A DNA stretch of 43,552 nt, taken from NCBI GenBank assembly GCA_902786565.1, contig CADACW010000001.1, forward strand, positions 119,151 to 162,702, in the 5' to 3' direction. Origin of the DNA: an uncultured Prevotellaceae bacterium. GTDB lineage: Bacteria; Bacteroidota; Bacteroidia; Bacteroidales; Bacteroidaceae. Shown here piece by piece: positions 13,661 to 43,552 of the stretch. The translations under genes and the position numbers were made by a program. Positions within the stretch are counted from its first letter, which is position 1; the number at the start of each line of letters is the position of its first letter. The notes under the pieces are model-generated. The model was given only the letters and a program-made list of their open reading frames with translations, had not been told where the DNA came from and ran no database searches.

Positions 13661-14404
13661 TCAGTCTTCATCGTTCATGCAGGTCTTGCAGCGGGCCCAC
13701 AGGTCGTAGGTGAGCGACACCTGCAGGGTGGTGAAGCAGTCGGTGTTCTTGAACATGCCGGTGCTCTTGATGCCGTATGGGTCGGCAATGCCGTCCAGCC
13801 TGTCGCTGCCTGTGATGTGCATCAGCAACTCTGCTGTGAGGTTGAGCCGCTGTGCCAGTTTGTATTTCACGCCCACGCCGATGGGCACCTGAAAGCCCAC
13901 TGCCGACGTGCCGTCAGGCTTGGCGAAGGCCAGTCCGGCACCGATGGCGATGAATGGCGTTATCGGCTTTGCCCCGAAATACTCGCGCCCTGTGCCGAAG
14001 GGCCAGAAGTTATACTCGAAGCACACGTTGAAGTCGACCAGGCTGGACGAGAACGTGACCACGCTGTCGGTGAGTGCCGGGTACCATGTCTCCGCATTGG
14101 CCGACGACCCCTTCAGCTGTCCGTAGTTCAGTACGGCCGCCCACGCCATCCTGGGGTTCAGCTTGTATTTGGCCACTGCCCCGCCCATGGGCTGTATATT
14201 CTTGAGCAGACTGCCGCTGAAGTCGCCCTGATAGCTCATCAGCCCCACACCGCCGCCCAGCTCCAGCCGGTATTCGGGCTGGTCCTGGGCCAGACAGTCG
14301 AGAAGGGGGAGGTGGAGTGTGAACAGTAGTATCACCATCCGCACGACCCTCACGGCAGCGTCTGCGCCACTTCTTCCCTGCCTATTCCGAAGCACGACCA
14401 TCAT
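13661..14404 (-). CDS. DUF6089-like secreted/outer-membrane beta protein
   Basis: 247 aa. The mature part (from about residue 45) begins EYRLELGGGVGLMSYQGDFSGSLL. It continues with alternating hydrophobic strands (YKLNPRMAWAAVLNYGQLKG, FEYNFWPFG, TPFIAIGAGLAFAKP, GVGVKYKLAQRLNLTAELLMH). This is the pattern of a small eight-stranded outer-membrane barrel and matches the family annotated as DUF6089, which sits upstream of uppS-bamA in many Bacteroidales. The annotated N-terminus has 22 residues before the hydrophobic VRMVILLFTLHLPLLDCLAQ. Translation may really begin at the internal ATG at 14338, or the protein has an unusually long n-region. Its role is not established; the location suggests outer-membrane biogenesis. 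Confidence 0.85.
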   Translation of the reverse strand: MMVVLRNRQGRSGADAAVRVVRMVILLFTLHLPLLDCLAQDQPEYRLELGGGVGLMSYQGDFSGSLLKNIQPMGGAVAKYKLNPRMAWAAVLNYGQLKGSSANAETWYPALTDSVVTFSSSLVDFNVCFEYNFWPFGTGREYFGAKPITPFIAIGAGLAFAKPDGTSAVGFQVPIGVGVKYKLAQRLNLTAELLMHITGSDRLDGIADPYGIKSTGMFKNTDCFTTLQVSLTYDLWARCKTCMNDED

Positions 14405-14420
14405 TTTTCTTCCACGTTGC

Positions 14421-15737
14421 TTACCACAGCTGTCCGAGCCACACCTGTCCGGCGTCGGTCACCAGCCACATCCGGCCGTCGCCGTCGCTGCACAAGGCCA
14501 CCTGCGTGCCCTTCAGTGCGGCGGGCAGGGCGTAGGCGCCGTTCTTCTTCCAGGTGATGCCCTGGTCACGCGACTGGAGCACCTCCAGCCGGCTGCCCAC
14601 GGCGAACACCGAGCCTTTGTAGTAGGCCATTGAGAGGCTCTCCTGGCTGGGCAGGGGGTAGCGGTTGGCACCGTCCAGGGGCATATAGACCCAGCGGCCT
14701 TCCGTCTTGTCTGTCTGTGCCGAGTAGCGGCTTATCTTGCGCCACAGCACGGTATTGTCGCTGCCCGGGCTCTGTCCGGCCAGCAGCACGTAGTCCATCG
14801 AGTCGGCGGGGGCGTAGGGCCAGCTCACCAGCGTCAGCTCTTTGGTGGGCAGCAGACTGGCATCGCTGTCCAGCTGCTCGTCACGCCAGTTCAGCCCGAC
14901 GCCGTCGGTGCACACCTTCAGCCGTCCGTCGGTGCCGAGGGCGAATATCTCGTGGTCGGTGGCACCTATCAGCGTGGCCAGGCCGGGGGCCTCGGTGCCG
15001 GGCAGTTTCTCCCATGGCCATTCGTGGGTGGGGGGTATGTATAGCTGGCCGCCCTGGCCGTCTTTCCCCAGATAGCTGTGCTCCACCCGGCCGTCGTCGC
15101 CTATGCGCATGGCCATCACGTCGTAGATGGTGCTGCCTAAAATCACGGTTCCACGGTCTAACATCAGCGCCGTGTCCAGACAGGTCACGAGCCGCTTGTC
15201 GGCCCATCCCTTCAGCTCGTCAGTCTCACCCAGCATGAGCCAATGGAAGTTGACGCCCGTGGTCTCGCTGGCGGTGAGCGTCATCGTGTAGTCGCGATAG
15301 GTCCTGCCGCTGCTGGAATAGACGCGCAGAGTGCGGGGAATAGAGAAGTCGAGAGAGTCGGTGGTGCCGATATACGAGAGGGTGTCGCTGGTTGGCGACT
15401 TGATGAGGGCCAAGCCCCCGTTCTTCGTCGACAGCGTACTGATCACCACGTGCTCCAGATCGGTGCCCAAAGGCAGTTCCGTCTGGTTGTAAATCTTGCG
15501 CCCTATATGGTCGATGGTCATCTTGTAGGCCGAGCCGACGAGGGTGGTCTTGATGATGGTGTCGTTGCCGGTAACCGACGAGTAGGTGTAGGTATAGCGG
15601 TTGAGCGTTCCCAGCGTGACGGCGGTGATGGCCGTGTCCTCATAGAGGGTCACGTCGCTCTCGTCGCTGTTCAGGCAGGAGGAGAGCAGGCCGAGGCCAG
15701 CCAGCAACAGGCACAATGCTCCAATGGTATTCTTCAT
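14421..15737 (-). CDS. DUF6242-like lipoprotein
   Basis: 438 aa from the ATG at 15737. An in-frame start 15 codons upstream is possible but lies before the signal peptide and overlaps the promoter box. The N-terminus MKNTIGALCLLLAGLGLLSSC is a lipoprotein signal with Cys21 as the lipidation site. Residues 25-150 form a beta domain (RYTYTYSS..., TDSLDFSIPRTLRVYSSSGRTYRDYTMTL), and the remainder has propeller-like repeats with S/T-W ends, including SRDQGITWKKNGAYALP, a BNR/Asp-box type turn. It resembles proteins annotated as DUF6242. It is the first gene of the envelope operon, 16 nt before the DUF6089-like gene, and probably sits on the periplasmic or outer-membrane surface. Confidence 0.86.
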   Translation of the reverse strand: MKNTIGALCLLLAGLGLLSSCLNSDESDVTLYEDTAITAVTLGTLNRYTYTYSSVTGNDTIIKTTLVGSAYKMTIDHIGRKIYNQTELPLGTDLEHVVISTLSTKNGGLALIKSPTSDTLSYIGTTDSLDFSIPRTLRVYSSSGRTYRDYTMTLTASETTGVNFHWLMLGETDELKGWADKRLVTCLDTALMLDRGTVILGSTIYDVMAMRIGDDGRVEHSYLGKDGQGGQLYIPPTHEWPWEKLPGTEAPGLATLIGATDHEIFALGTDGRLKVCTDGVGLNWRDEQLDSDASLLPTKELTLVSWPYAPADSMDYVLLAGQSPGSDNTVLWRKISRYSAQTDKTEGRWVYMPLDGANRYPLPSQESLSMAYYKGSVFAVGSRLEVLQSRDQGITWKKNGAYALPAALKGTQVALCSDGDGRMWLVTDAGQVWLGQLW

Positions 15738-41136: not shown

Positions 41137-41164
41137 TATATGTGTAGTTTTCGCAATTTCGATG

Positions 41165-41196
41165 CAAAGTTACGAAAAAACGAGAGAAAAGCCAAA
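41165..41196 (-). promoter_or_regulatory. Promoter of the CCA-adding enzyme gene
   Basis: On the minus strand, TTTG (41193-41196), 20-nt spacer, TAACTTTG (41165-41172), 29 nt before the ATG. A second CAAAGTTACGAAAAAA copy 73 nt further on (41238-41245) repeats the -7 box but has no well-placed -33 element. Confidence 0.8.
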
Positions 41197-41493
41197 TTTA
41201 TTTGAGCTTTTCCGAGTGCAAGTAATTTCGGCGAAGCCAAAGTTACGAAAAAAGCTTGTAACAAACGAGCAATTTTCGAAGATTAACGCAGAAAGCACGT
41301 AAATAAAGGGCAAGACAGGGAATAATCGGGAATTGAAGGATGAAGGGAAAAGGCAACTTGATGCGGATTGGTGCAAGAGTTAGGTCTCTAAATCGTACCA
41401 CGCTTGAGCCACCTCTGATAGTTAAACTTTTCTAATTTCAGAGACACGGAAAAGGCAGAATGACGCTTCAAGGCTTCACAGCTAAAGCGTGGA
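41197..41493. other. Intergenic stretch at the start of the AT-rich region
   Basis: No gene was found. It holds a second copy of the -7-like box (41238-41245) and short inverted repeats: GTCTCT/AGAGAC at 41384-41389 and 41440-41445, and CCACGCTT (41398-41405) with AAGCGTGG (41485-41492). These could pair around the following small gene's start, but the arms are short and may be chance. Confidence 0.4.
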
Positions 41494-41508
41494 ATGACTT
41501 TTGCAAAG

Positions 41509-41757
41509 ATGGATGCAATCATCAGAAGAAATGCGGAGAAGGCGCAGCAAGTGAAAACAAATGTGCGATTACAGTTTACGCATTACGAATTGCCAAAACA
41601 AGAAGCCAACCCAGAGCCACAGAAACATGCCGAATCATCTATTTCTATTCCCTCACTTGGTTTATTCGATACCAACAATCCCGTCTATGACCCTACCGAA
41701 GAAGAGTTCAGAAGGAGGATGCAGAAGAAGAAAAAGAAGCGAGGGCCAAGATTATAA
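41509..41757 (+). CDS. Small basic-tailed protein of unknown function
   Basis: 82 aa from ATG 41509; an ATG five codons upstream is also in frame. It starts MDAIIRRNAEKAQQVKTNVRLQFTHYELPKQ, has a middle IPSLGLFDTNNPVYDPTEEEFRRRMQ, and ends in a run of lysines and arginines (KKKKKRGPRL). The composition looks like a real protein, not a shadow: balanced charged residues, few rare amino acids, low cysteine. A TGACTTTTG sequence directly before the start may be a degenerate -7 box, which would make the message nearly leaderless. I do not recognise the family; the basic tail suggests nucleic-acid binding. A bidirectional hairpin follows at 41788-41823. Confidence 0.5.
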   Translation: MDAIIRRNAEKAQQVKTNVRLQFTHYELPKQEANPEPQKHAESSISIPSLGLFDTNNPVYDPTEEEFRRRMQKKKKKRGPRL

Positions 41758-41787
41758 TGATAACTGTTTCTCGTTCAAATAATGAAG

Positions 41788-41823
41788 ATGGGGGCCTGCC
41801 CAATTGGTGGTAGGTGCCCCCAT
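41788..41823. terminator. Hairpin between convergent small reading frames
   Basis: ATGGGGGC(C)TGCC at 41788-41800 pairs with 41809-41823. It lies 30 nt after the small plus-strand gene and directly after the stop (41827) of the broken minus-strand frame, so it could end both transcripts. Confidence 0.6.
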
Positions 41824-41826
41824 TTA

Positions 41827-42051
41827 CTAACATTTGAAGCCCGGTTCTGTATCCTCTCCCAGTTCAAAGACATTCTCGTCAATCTTCACTGTTTCAATTT
41901 GTTCTTATGTAGCCATATTCCCAACAAAAGTAGGCAATTTATCCGAATTTTCCCCAAAAAAGGCTTTCACCGCTCGGCCTTTGGACGCTTTTCTAGGAAA
42001 AGAAGGCTTGTGGAGGTGTTTTTTTAGGTAATTATGTATCTCTTTAGAAAA
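41827..42051 (-). pseudogene. Possible broken small gene with an internal stop
   Basis: On the minus strand the frame is open from 42051 to a TAA at 41905-41907, and in the same frame from there to a TAG at 41827-41829. The two parts would read ...SDKLPTFVGNMAT-stop-EQIETVKIDENVFELGEDTEPGFKC. The second part has a natural acidic protein composition. The only ATG, at 41916, is three codons before the internal stop, and TACTTTTG at about 41925-41932 could be a -7 box (spacing to TTTG is 22 nt). This may be a decayed gene, or chance. The segment is otherwise without a gene; the overlapping plus-strand frames looked less protein-like. Confidence 0.3.
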
Positions 42052-42058
42052 TTATTCG

Positions 42059-42066
42059 TATCTTTG
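42059..42066 (+). promoter_or_regulatory. -7 box upstream of the leader peptide and coiled-coil nuclease gene
   Basis: TATCTTTG fits the TAnnTTTG consensus and lies 26 nt before the ATG of the 14-codon frame. No TTTG stands at 19-21 nt upstream, so the -33 element is weak. Confidence 0.55.
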
Positions 42067-42091
42067 TGGTCAAAAATTGGCAATACAGGAG

Positions 42092-42136
42092 ATGTCTAAA
42101 AACTCACTCGTTACAACTAATACTATTAGAGTATGA
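42092..42136 (+). CDS. 14-codon reading frame overlapping the start of the nuclease gene
   Basis: ATG at 42092 to TGA at 42134-42136 encodes MSKNSLVTTNTIRV. AGGAG, a good Shine-Dalgarno sequence and unusual in this window, stands 2-6 nt before the ATG. The stop overlaps the start of the large gene as ATGA, the arrangement used for translational coupling. Its size and place suggest a leader peptide whose translation controls that of the following gene. Too short to be sure it is made. Confidence 0.45.
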   Translation: MSKNSLVTTNTIRV

Positions 42137-43552
42137 AAGGACTGGCAATTTGGTTTCTGAAAAAAATCTATGGAATAGATGTAGATAACCTTCGAGAATA
42201 CAACAAAAGACTAAAGGAAGAGAATGGCAGACATGTCTCTAGGAATAATTCTCTGAAAAAGGACAAGGAATCCTTGTCTGAGAAGACTATGCGTTTAGAA
42301 AAAGAAAAGAGTGAACTAGAGAACACAAATCGTAAGTTGAAAAGCAACAATGATGAGACGAACAAAGAGAATTCTGGCCTAAGAACGTCCTTAGATGATG
42401 CTAATAGGGAGATTAATCGATTGAAAAGCTCACTAGATGAAGCAAATAAGAAGATTAAATCATTAGAGGAAAAGGGTTCAATAGAACCTATCCCTGAAGT
42501 GCCTAATGGTGATGATGAGAATCAAGACGAGATAGAGAATCTAAAGCGGCAATTTGACAATCTCCAAAAACAGTTGGAGCAAACAAATGAAGAAAACCAA
42601 AATCTGAGAGCGAAAACAAGCAACCGAGATTCTACTATAGATATTTTGAAAAAAGAAATAAAAGATCAAAAGGTAACTGTAGATTCACAAAAACAAACTA
42701 TAGAAACCTTGCAAGATGATAAAAGAAAGTTAGAAGAGGAGAATAGAGACCTTGAAGAAGAATTACGAAAACTAAAAGGTGATACCCTTCCCCCCATAAA
42801 TGTGTCAGGAGATGGTCCCGTCATAACACCAAAACCTCCTGTAGATATAGAATCTCCCAAACCAACAATTGACGAGACTAAACGTACCATTGATACTGTA
42901 ATAGACATAGAAACTGATAAAGAGATATATGCCAAATCTTTCTTTGCTCAGCCAGAAGGTGTTATCTTTAAGATGAGGACCGAGTTGGAGAAAGCTATCT
43001 ACCTGCATAGACCAAAGTATGTCTGCAAATACTGTGGGCAGATGGTTAAGATTTCAGGAAGGAAGACAGAACGAGGTATGGCACGCTTCTTCTCACATTT
43101 AAGAGATAGCGATGACTGTGACTATAAGACAACAACAGGCAGAACAAGACGAGAAATTAACCGAGAAAAATTTGCAAGATGTAATGAAGGCGAACGCCAT
43201 AAGTTCCTAAAGGCCGAAATCGCAAAATACCTCGAAAAGACTGAAGGGGTAACTGATGTAAGAACAGAGAACACCGTAAAAGGCAATCATCCTATTCTCA
43301 GATGGAGACGCCCAGATGTTATAGCAAACTATCGTGGACAAGAAGTTGTATTCGAACTGCAGTTAAGTACCACTTTTGTAAGTGTCATTGCGGAACGTGA
43401 TTTGTTCTACAGGTTAAACAAAAAACACATCATTTGGGTTTCTAACTTTGATGAACAAGGAGAACATGTTGACTTGACTAATATGATGGTTAAGGACATT
43501 TACTATAATAATCGAATGAACCTTTTCATCTTCGACCTTGATGCTCAAAGGA
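42133..43552 (+). CDS. Long coiled coil fused to CoiA-like PD-(D/E)XK nuclease (runs off window)
   Basis: At least 473 codons, open to the window end. Residues 1-10 are hydrophobic (MKGLAIWFLKKIYGI). Residues about 15-220 are a nearly unbroken charged coiled coil (repeated LKEEN, LKSSLDEANKKI, EENRDLEEELRKL), and 225-265 a proline-rich linker. A zinc-finger-like motif follows: C298-x2-C301, H322, C329 (YVCKYCGQM...FFSHLRDSDDC). Then comes a nuclease domain with ERHKFLKAEI near 354, RRPDVIANY (D395) and VVFELQLSTTF (E408-x-Q410), and RDLFYRLNKKHIIWV. This order, zinc motif then D...ExQ nuclease, is that of CoiA-type and DUF6035-type proteins. The gene is AT-richer than its neighbours. It could act in DNA uptake or defence; the coiled coil could serve as a sensor or scaffold. 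The membrane association of the N-terminus is uncertain. Confidence 0.8.
   Translation, partial: MKGLAIWFLKKIYGIDVDNLREYNKRLKEENGRHVSRNNSLKKDKESLSEKTMRLEKEKSELENTNRKLKSNNDETNKENSGLRTSLDDANREINRLKSSLDEANKKIKSLEEKGSIEPIPEVPNGDDENQDEIENLKRQFDNLQKQLEQTNEENQNLRAKTSNRDSTIDILKKEIKDQKVTVDSQKQTIETLQDDKRKLEEENRDLEEELRKLKGDTLPPINVSGDGPVITPKPPVDIESPKPTIDETKRTIDTVIDIETDKEIYAKSFFAQPEGVIFKMRTELEKAIYLHRPKYVCKYCGQMVKISGRKTERGMARFFSHLRDSDDCDYKTTTGRTRREINREKFARCNEGERHKFLKAEIAKYLEKTEGVTDVRTENTVKGNHPILRWRRPDVIANYRGQEVVFELQLSTTFVSVIAERDLFYRLNKKHIIWVSNFDEQGEHVDLTNMMVKDIYYNNRMNLFIFDLDAQR

Follow-up and report, generated by a model that had tools for sequence, protein, structure and literature searches.

The last gene in a 43,552-nucleotide stretch of DNA from an uncultured Prevotellaceae bacterium (contig CADACW010000001.1, positions 119,151 to 162,702; the whole stretch is referred to below as the window) encodes a coiled-coil protein with a zinc-like motif and a CoiA-like nuclease domain. 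From the sequence comparisons described here we consider it fairly probable that Prevotella-type bacteria carry an exchangeable, helicase-based island of defence-like character in which this protein is the nuclease subunit. An open reading frame (ORF) scan placed the gene at 42133..43552; this and all other features of the window given below are on the forward strand. The last base of the window is the end of the contig and the gene, of which the 5' half is present, is cut there. Its ORF (42133-43551) comprises 473 residues and is open through the final base.

The domain structure was much as the initial annotation had described it. A coiled coil of about 200 residues (residues 16-215; 42178..42777) was recognised by a Pfam scan and by its composition (E 15%, K 14%, with 3 prolines and 4 glycines per 200 residues). 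Next comes a zinc-ribbon-like DUF7830 domain (residues 263-334; 42919..43134; Pfam E-value 8.6e-18), in which the CxxC...H...C motif is present as C298-x2-C301...H322...C329. The PD-(D/E)XK nuclease domain (43165..43542) matched DUF6035 at residues 345-470 (1.3e-14; 54.9 bits, cut-off 22.6) and, overlapping with this, CoiA_nuc at residues 352-467 (1.2e-6; 29.2 bits, cut-off 20.3). All three matches exceed the gathering scores, in agreement with the kinship to CoiA and DUF6035 that had been proposed. E352, D395 and E408-x-Q410 are present, the last three residues as given by the initial annotation, and D395 with E408-x-Q410 conforms to the PD-ExQ active-site pattern. Structure prediction also pointed to a nuclease fold: the first of two models was uninformative and the second contained a PD-(D/E)XK core, in a fold comparison that covers residues 85-219 and scarcely includes the zinc part. 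No convincing match was found when solved structures were searched by sequence. The kinship with CoiA is thus one of profile, motif and probable fold. Matches to JetC, LmuB, SMC and Rad50-type models of PADLOC and NCBIfam were rejected as coiled-coil artefacts, as they sit in the coiled coil or far below the model cut-offs.

Six close relatives (loci L003-L008) were found in metagenome-assembled genomes titled Prevotella or Prevotellaceae. Their nuclease parts are 90-95% identical to that of the window, and the whole proteins comprise 922-1005 residues. The C-terminal half contains WG repeats in L008, L041, L042, L082, L083 and L086 (Pfam; the scan left out L084, L085 and L087). An S1 domain at the C-terminus was clear in the more distant L042 and below the cut-off in L086, and we read the C-terminal part of the relatives as S1/OB-like. 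The term sensor-like, which the initial annotation used for extensions of such nucleases, may better suit this WG/OB half, which lies outside the truncated gene. One family member, of 2101 residues (L041, 4903-11208), combines WG repeats with a very long helical N-terminus. Comparison of the relatives showed conservation at the two ends of the protein and rapid divergence of the coiled coil. In an alignment of nine diverse DUF6035 proteins the invariant positions included the CCHC residues, an E, an H and a K within a single helix, the P-D pair and E-x-Q. In a pattern survey of 29 proteins, which takes in the window protein and its six near relatives, CCHC was present in all 29, PD...ExQ in 26 (absent as a pattern from L088-L090) and the helix pattern E-x2/3-H-x3-K, to which E352 belongs, in place in 22 (not found in L084-L090). 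Used as a query, the nuclease part had matches in 15 of the 299 genomes searched from the window's genus, in 2 of 61 from a sister genus and in 7 of 395 from the phylum; one of the phylum matches spans 37 residues. With a longer query 43 of 399 family genomes matched, only 6 of them over the nuclease part and the remainder over the WG part. The gene is therefore patchy and accessory. When viral contigs were scanned with seven queries, one yielded a relative (L121) and the other six none.

The initial annotation had likened the protein to solitary nucleases and regarded it as the effector of a defence or DNA-processing system with its other genes to the right. To define the neighbourhood we considered 15 distinct loci of what is called here the long family, with nuclease parts at least 43% identical and the window excluded: L003-L008, L040, L041, L042 and L082-L087. 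L043, from a second genome, has about the same sequence as L042; L084 was extended as L098, and the contigs of L007, L005, L008 and L003 appear a second time as L078-L081. The nuclease is mostly in company, with a helicase in the cluster at 10 of the 15 loci and DUF1848 at 8. Such genes are indeed found to the right of the nuclease gene in relatives, and those behind it in L003-L008 have the same direction and are closely spaced. In L003, L004, L005, L006 and L008 the gene is accompanied by a methyltransferase (MTase)-like protein, a UvrD-type helicase, a protein of unknown function and DUF1848. L007 and L086 possess instead a gene pair of the TOTE conflict systems (TPR, OB, TBP, Effector, according to PMC12458937; PDC-M16A/B in PADLOC), located 3' of the nuclease in the former and 5' in the latter. 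L082 and L098 combine the nuclease with DUF1848 and a DpdF-like helicase, and L087 with DUF1848, a NERD/UvrD-like helicase and TerB. Of the remaining five loci, L083 showed a possible Schlafen-like gene (outside the Pfam scans) and L042 a YhcG nuclease; the neighbours in L040, L041 and L085 were uninformative. No competence operon was noticed among the loci examined, and no neighbour there suggested such a role.

Several of the partner genes have features of their own. All four DUF1848 proteins inspected carry a C-terminal CX3CX2C, which presumably indicates an iron-sulphur, perhaps radical-SAM-like, protein. The large ORF4 of the cassettes (L005, 14358-16103; L008, 14210-16276; L091, 9096-11315) gave only chance-level Pfam and PADLOC matches and has a recurrent N-terminus, (Y)YIPT..LN..NIL....ISP..FY..R.FG. 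In L084/L098, L085, L086 and L087 a neighbouring gene of 175-226 residues and the nuclease share, as judged by eye, a brief N-terminal hydrophobic-LxG-x-D-I/V-xxxL pattern, which maybe represents a common docking peptide.

DUF1848 was matched in 54 of the 299 genus genomes (73 matches including fragments). Nuclease and DUF1848 occurred together in 7 genomes and lay within 8 kb of each other in 6 of the 15 nuclease genomes, where random placing would give approximately 0.016-0.019 cases. Co-occurrence by presence and absence alone gave P=0.009. After removal of the discovery genomes, which account for three of the six cases, DUF1848 was within 8 kb in 3 of 12 nuclease genomes (P ~4e-7). These P-values serve as a guide only, because related genomes are not independent. 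The differing helicases (UvrD-type, DpdF-like, NERD/UvrD-like) argue for a repeated association of the nuclease with DUF1848. The full-length TOTE TPR-OB protein (at least 77% identity) was present in 2 of the 299 genomes, in both adjoining the nuclease, one of them being the source locus.

Between relatives the partner genes in these islands differ as whole blocks. L005 and L008 occupy the same chromosomal site, upstream of a gene recognised as ffh. At the DNA level their flanks are 79-88% identical and ORF1 and the region from DUF1848 onwards 88-91%, and the intervening 3.9 kb cannot be aligned. The same picture emerged from the proteins: ORF1, DUF1848 and the next two are 89-97% identical, and those between 32%, 26% or unrecognisable. 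L007 retains ORF1 at 85% identity and carries the TOTE genes in place of the other module.

The set of MTase, UvrD, unknown protein and DUF1848 also occurs without the nuclease, in 7 of 11 loci fetched (L091-L096 and L100). Among the other four, a contig end truncates L097 and L101, DUF1848 stands alone from the set in L099, and L098 has the nuclease; the contig of L095 stops 0.85 kb past its set. In the nuclease-less sets of L095 and L100 a NERD nuclease domain is located on the MTase-like protein. A YhcG nuclease precedes the set in L092 and a PLD-like protein is nearby in L093; no alternative nuclease was noticed in the sets of L091, L094 and L096. In the 917-position PDC-M16A model the initial part (positions 3-209) is matched by the NERD domain of L095. 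In L007 and L086 the helicase-like proteins align to this model from about position 300 onward, without the NERD-matching part. A further TOTE pair, L124, has a sub-threshold NERD match, and DUF6035 was not found in the 16 kb examined. We take the presence or absence of NERD in the cassettes and the PDC-M16A alignments as a hint of a common role for NERD and the CoiA-like nuclease. L093 also contains a retron-type reverse transcriptase (13849-15291) a few genes from its DUF1848 cassette.

The islands also have a leader in common. The promoter-like sequence TATCTTTGTGGTCANNAATTGGCAATAC (42059..42086), which the initial annotation had not noted, recurs in related islands whose first genes differ, preceding ORF1, DUF1848 or a small ORF; it was seen at the window, L003-L008, L087, L088, L098 and others. 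It includes the TAnnTTTG element known from Bacteroidetes promoters. That islands share the leader although they begin with different genes is a real observation. With up to 3 mismatches it was found in 17 of 239 genus genomes, and the reversed control gave none among the matches listed. Seven of the 17 sites are before the nuclease island, 3 (genomes G946, G809 and G862) are beside DUF1848 or its remnant, and the remaining 7 are before other genes or genes not identified; G809 and G880 are not independent because their neighbouring genes are the same. The small ORF behind the leader encodes 67-121 residues (MVDDKK..AEMAEYANGAAQYL; L005, 8866-9123; L008, 8866-9123; L003, 8954-9319; also L108 and L116), and its L005 copy had no Pfam match.

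It is tempting to go further and to suppose that one plug-in nuclease serves several Bacteroidales helicase modules (TOTE, DUF1848/UvrD/MTase and DUF1848/DpdF-like) under a shared leader, whole recognition modules being exchanged beside the constant nuclease and NERD fusions representing an alternative for the same slot. We offer this tentatively and would sooner expect it to fail than to hold. The leader was present in 7 of 12 nuclease genomes and 10 of 227 others, a Fisher P of 1.6e-6 that is circular because the motif had been derived with the help of six of these seven nuclease genomes (G000, which is the window genome, G805, G880, G915, G962 and G1008). With these removed the figures were 1 of 6 and 10 of 227 (P=0.25); because this check on the non-defining genomes was not significant, our estimate for the plug-in nuclease was lowered slightly. 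If it were true, TOTE and DUF1848 cassettes would be parts of one modular defence superfamily.

A possible mechanism for the defence-like island can be outlined. The coiled coil would dock or multimerise the nuclease, and the WG/OB half would bind a partner or nucleic acid. Invading nucleic acid, DNA or RNA, might be recognised or opened by the partner helicase and would then be cut by the nuclease; in some cassettes without a CoiA-like nuclease, a fused NERD domain may take the slot that this nuclease would otherwise fill. A nuclease with docking and binding parts, itself constant while recognition modules change, would fit the idea that helicase-based defence islands share one cutting subunit. 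Should this be correct, DUF6035, DUF7830, DUF1848 and DUF7017/TOTE, mainly names so far, would come together as components of a modular defence island whose nuclease is interchangeable, and a small gene set would be available whose mutual need is directly testable.

Could the gene instead belong to the ordinary cargo of plasmids or integrative elements, its product processing DNA for maintenance, recombination or transfer much as CoiA acts in DNA uptake? We think this rather unlikely, though the distant relatives provide some arguments for it. These lie outside the 15 loci (L044, L051-L054, L056-L062, L076, L088-L090 and L121) and their contexts were mostly examined, L076 excepted, L056 having no annotated gene at the match. 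DUF6035 relatives occur in 31 plasmid records and at the end of a Vibrio phage (L060) and of a viral contig (L121), RecBCD-like genes, named from their first residues and unscanned, adjoin the L051 copy, and a weak MobB-like remnant adjoins the window gene. However, the long family repeatedly has helicases and DUF1848 as neighbours, and mobility genes were noticed beside only some of its loci, such as L042. Moreover, homologues do occur with known defence systems. In L052 the distant DUF6035 gene adjoins Hachiman HamA/HamB and Shedu SduA, and in L057 it adjoins AbiEii and genes annotated as ATP-dependent endonuclease and ATP-dependent helicase, names that we read as Gabija-like. AbiEii is also found in L058, an ABC-three-component system in L062 and a type I restriction gene in L061. 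Homologues were not invariably beside housekeeping genes.

Still less probable is that a free-standing nuclease, toxin-like or of the abortive-infection type, travels with different systems by happenstance. Among the neighbours scanned in part, no partner cassette is evident at L040 or at L085 (one small coiled-coil-like gene), nor was anything noticed beside the distant genes of L044 and L053. The proximity of DUF1848, which persists without the discovery genomes, and the co-directional, closely spaced genes behind the nuclease in L003-L008 speak against this reading. That the fold is inactive and serves as a structural or nucleic-acid-binding scaffold seems very improbable: PD..ExQ was not found in three distant proteins and the E..H..K pattern in 7 of the 29 surveyed, but the E, D, E-x-Q and CCHC that are invariant in nine diverse members are all retained in the window protein.

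The setting of the gene in the window supports its location in a variable island of low G+C content. The G+C content is 0.548 in 1-41136, 0.405 in 41137-42132 and 0.374 in the ORF, confirming the drop relative to the chromosome on the left; every 1-kb step with G+C below 0.42 starts at or beyond 41251. An 87-residue ORF at 41494..41757 has a weak MobB match (C-terminal part of the Bacteroides protein; E=0.0023, with 17 bits where the cut-off is 400), possibly a remnant of a mobilizable element at the island edge. The ATGA-coupled mini-frame of 14 codons does exist (42092..42136), overlapping the ORF start, but alignment with the leaders of relatives showed that it is not conserved: of the two that align through it, L007 is 1 base shorter and out of frame and L006 lacks the ATG. 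A leader peptide was rejected on this non-conservation and the mini-frame is probably due to chance. Neither the 3' half of the gene nor a DUF1848 match was found in the window genome's assembly. Gene start and leader most resemble the TOTE-type locus L007 (93% identity across the initial 165 bases), but towards its end the gene is equally near L004, so that the comparison points to no single partner type. As a guess, the contig may break here because strains carry different modules behind the same conserved gene.

In a literature search that left subscription papers mostly uncovered, nothing treated DUF6035 or DUF1848 in defence, UG35 with DUF1848 gave only unrelated papers and TOTE systems one preprint only; none of the matches listed for CoiA and defence dealt with this family. 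Comparison with known systems revealed partial likenesses. DpdF models are matched by the large helicases of superfamily 2 that L082 and L098 contain. The matches listed for the scanned neighbours include no further strong one to Dpd, a weak DpdK-like PLD match being present in the nuclease-less L093. The UvrD-type helicase, DUF1848 and MTase-like protein of the relatives' cassettes recall RTasHel, RTasDUF1848 and RT_UG35 of PADLOC. The RT_UG35 match concerns the MTase-like protein only (positions 30-202 of the 938-position model; motif DFGCGTG/DFCCGTG), and unlike UG35-type defence-associated reverse transcriptase systems, no reverse transcriptase was found in ORF2-5 of L005 (Pfam) or in ORF2-4 of L008 and ORF4 of L004 (PADLOC). 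CoCoNuT systems combine coiled coils with PD-(D/E)xK nucleases, OB folds and helicases (PMC11090510), and a like combination is seen here; however, no McrB-like GTPase or McrC/DUF2357 was listed among the relatives' neighbours scanned with Pfam. Dazbog was dropped as a name for the DUF7017 protein because, according to a review (PMC10952713), Dazbog has a DUF262 gene. As to TOTE, L007 and L086 carry a DUF7017 and S1CSD-TOTE protein and a helicase-like protein beside the nuclease. The helicase-like protein matches PDC-M16A strongly and TBP-TOTE only weakly, with 21.2 bits (L007) and 19.8 bits (L086), below the cut-off of 27. In contrast to TOTE, the CoiA-like nuclease is a separate gene and most relatives have other partners. 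The protein itself resembles CoiA_nuc (PF06054) and DUF6035 (PF19500) with DUF7830 (PF25169), above curated cut-offs, in its zinc-like motif followed by a PD-ExQ nuclease, PD-EXQ being the active site of CoiA (PMC1189080). To this arrangement the family adds a long N-terminal coiled coil, and its relatives WG repeats, a putative S1/OB-like C-terminus and a setting in helicase islands.
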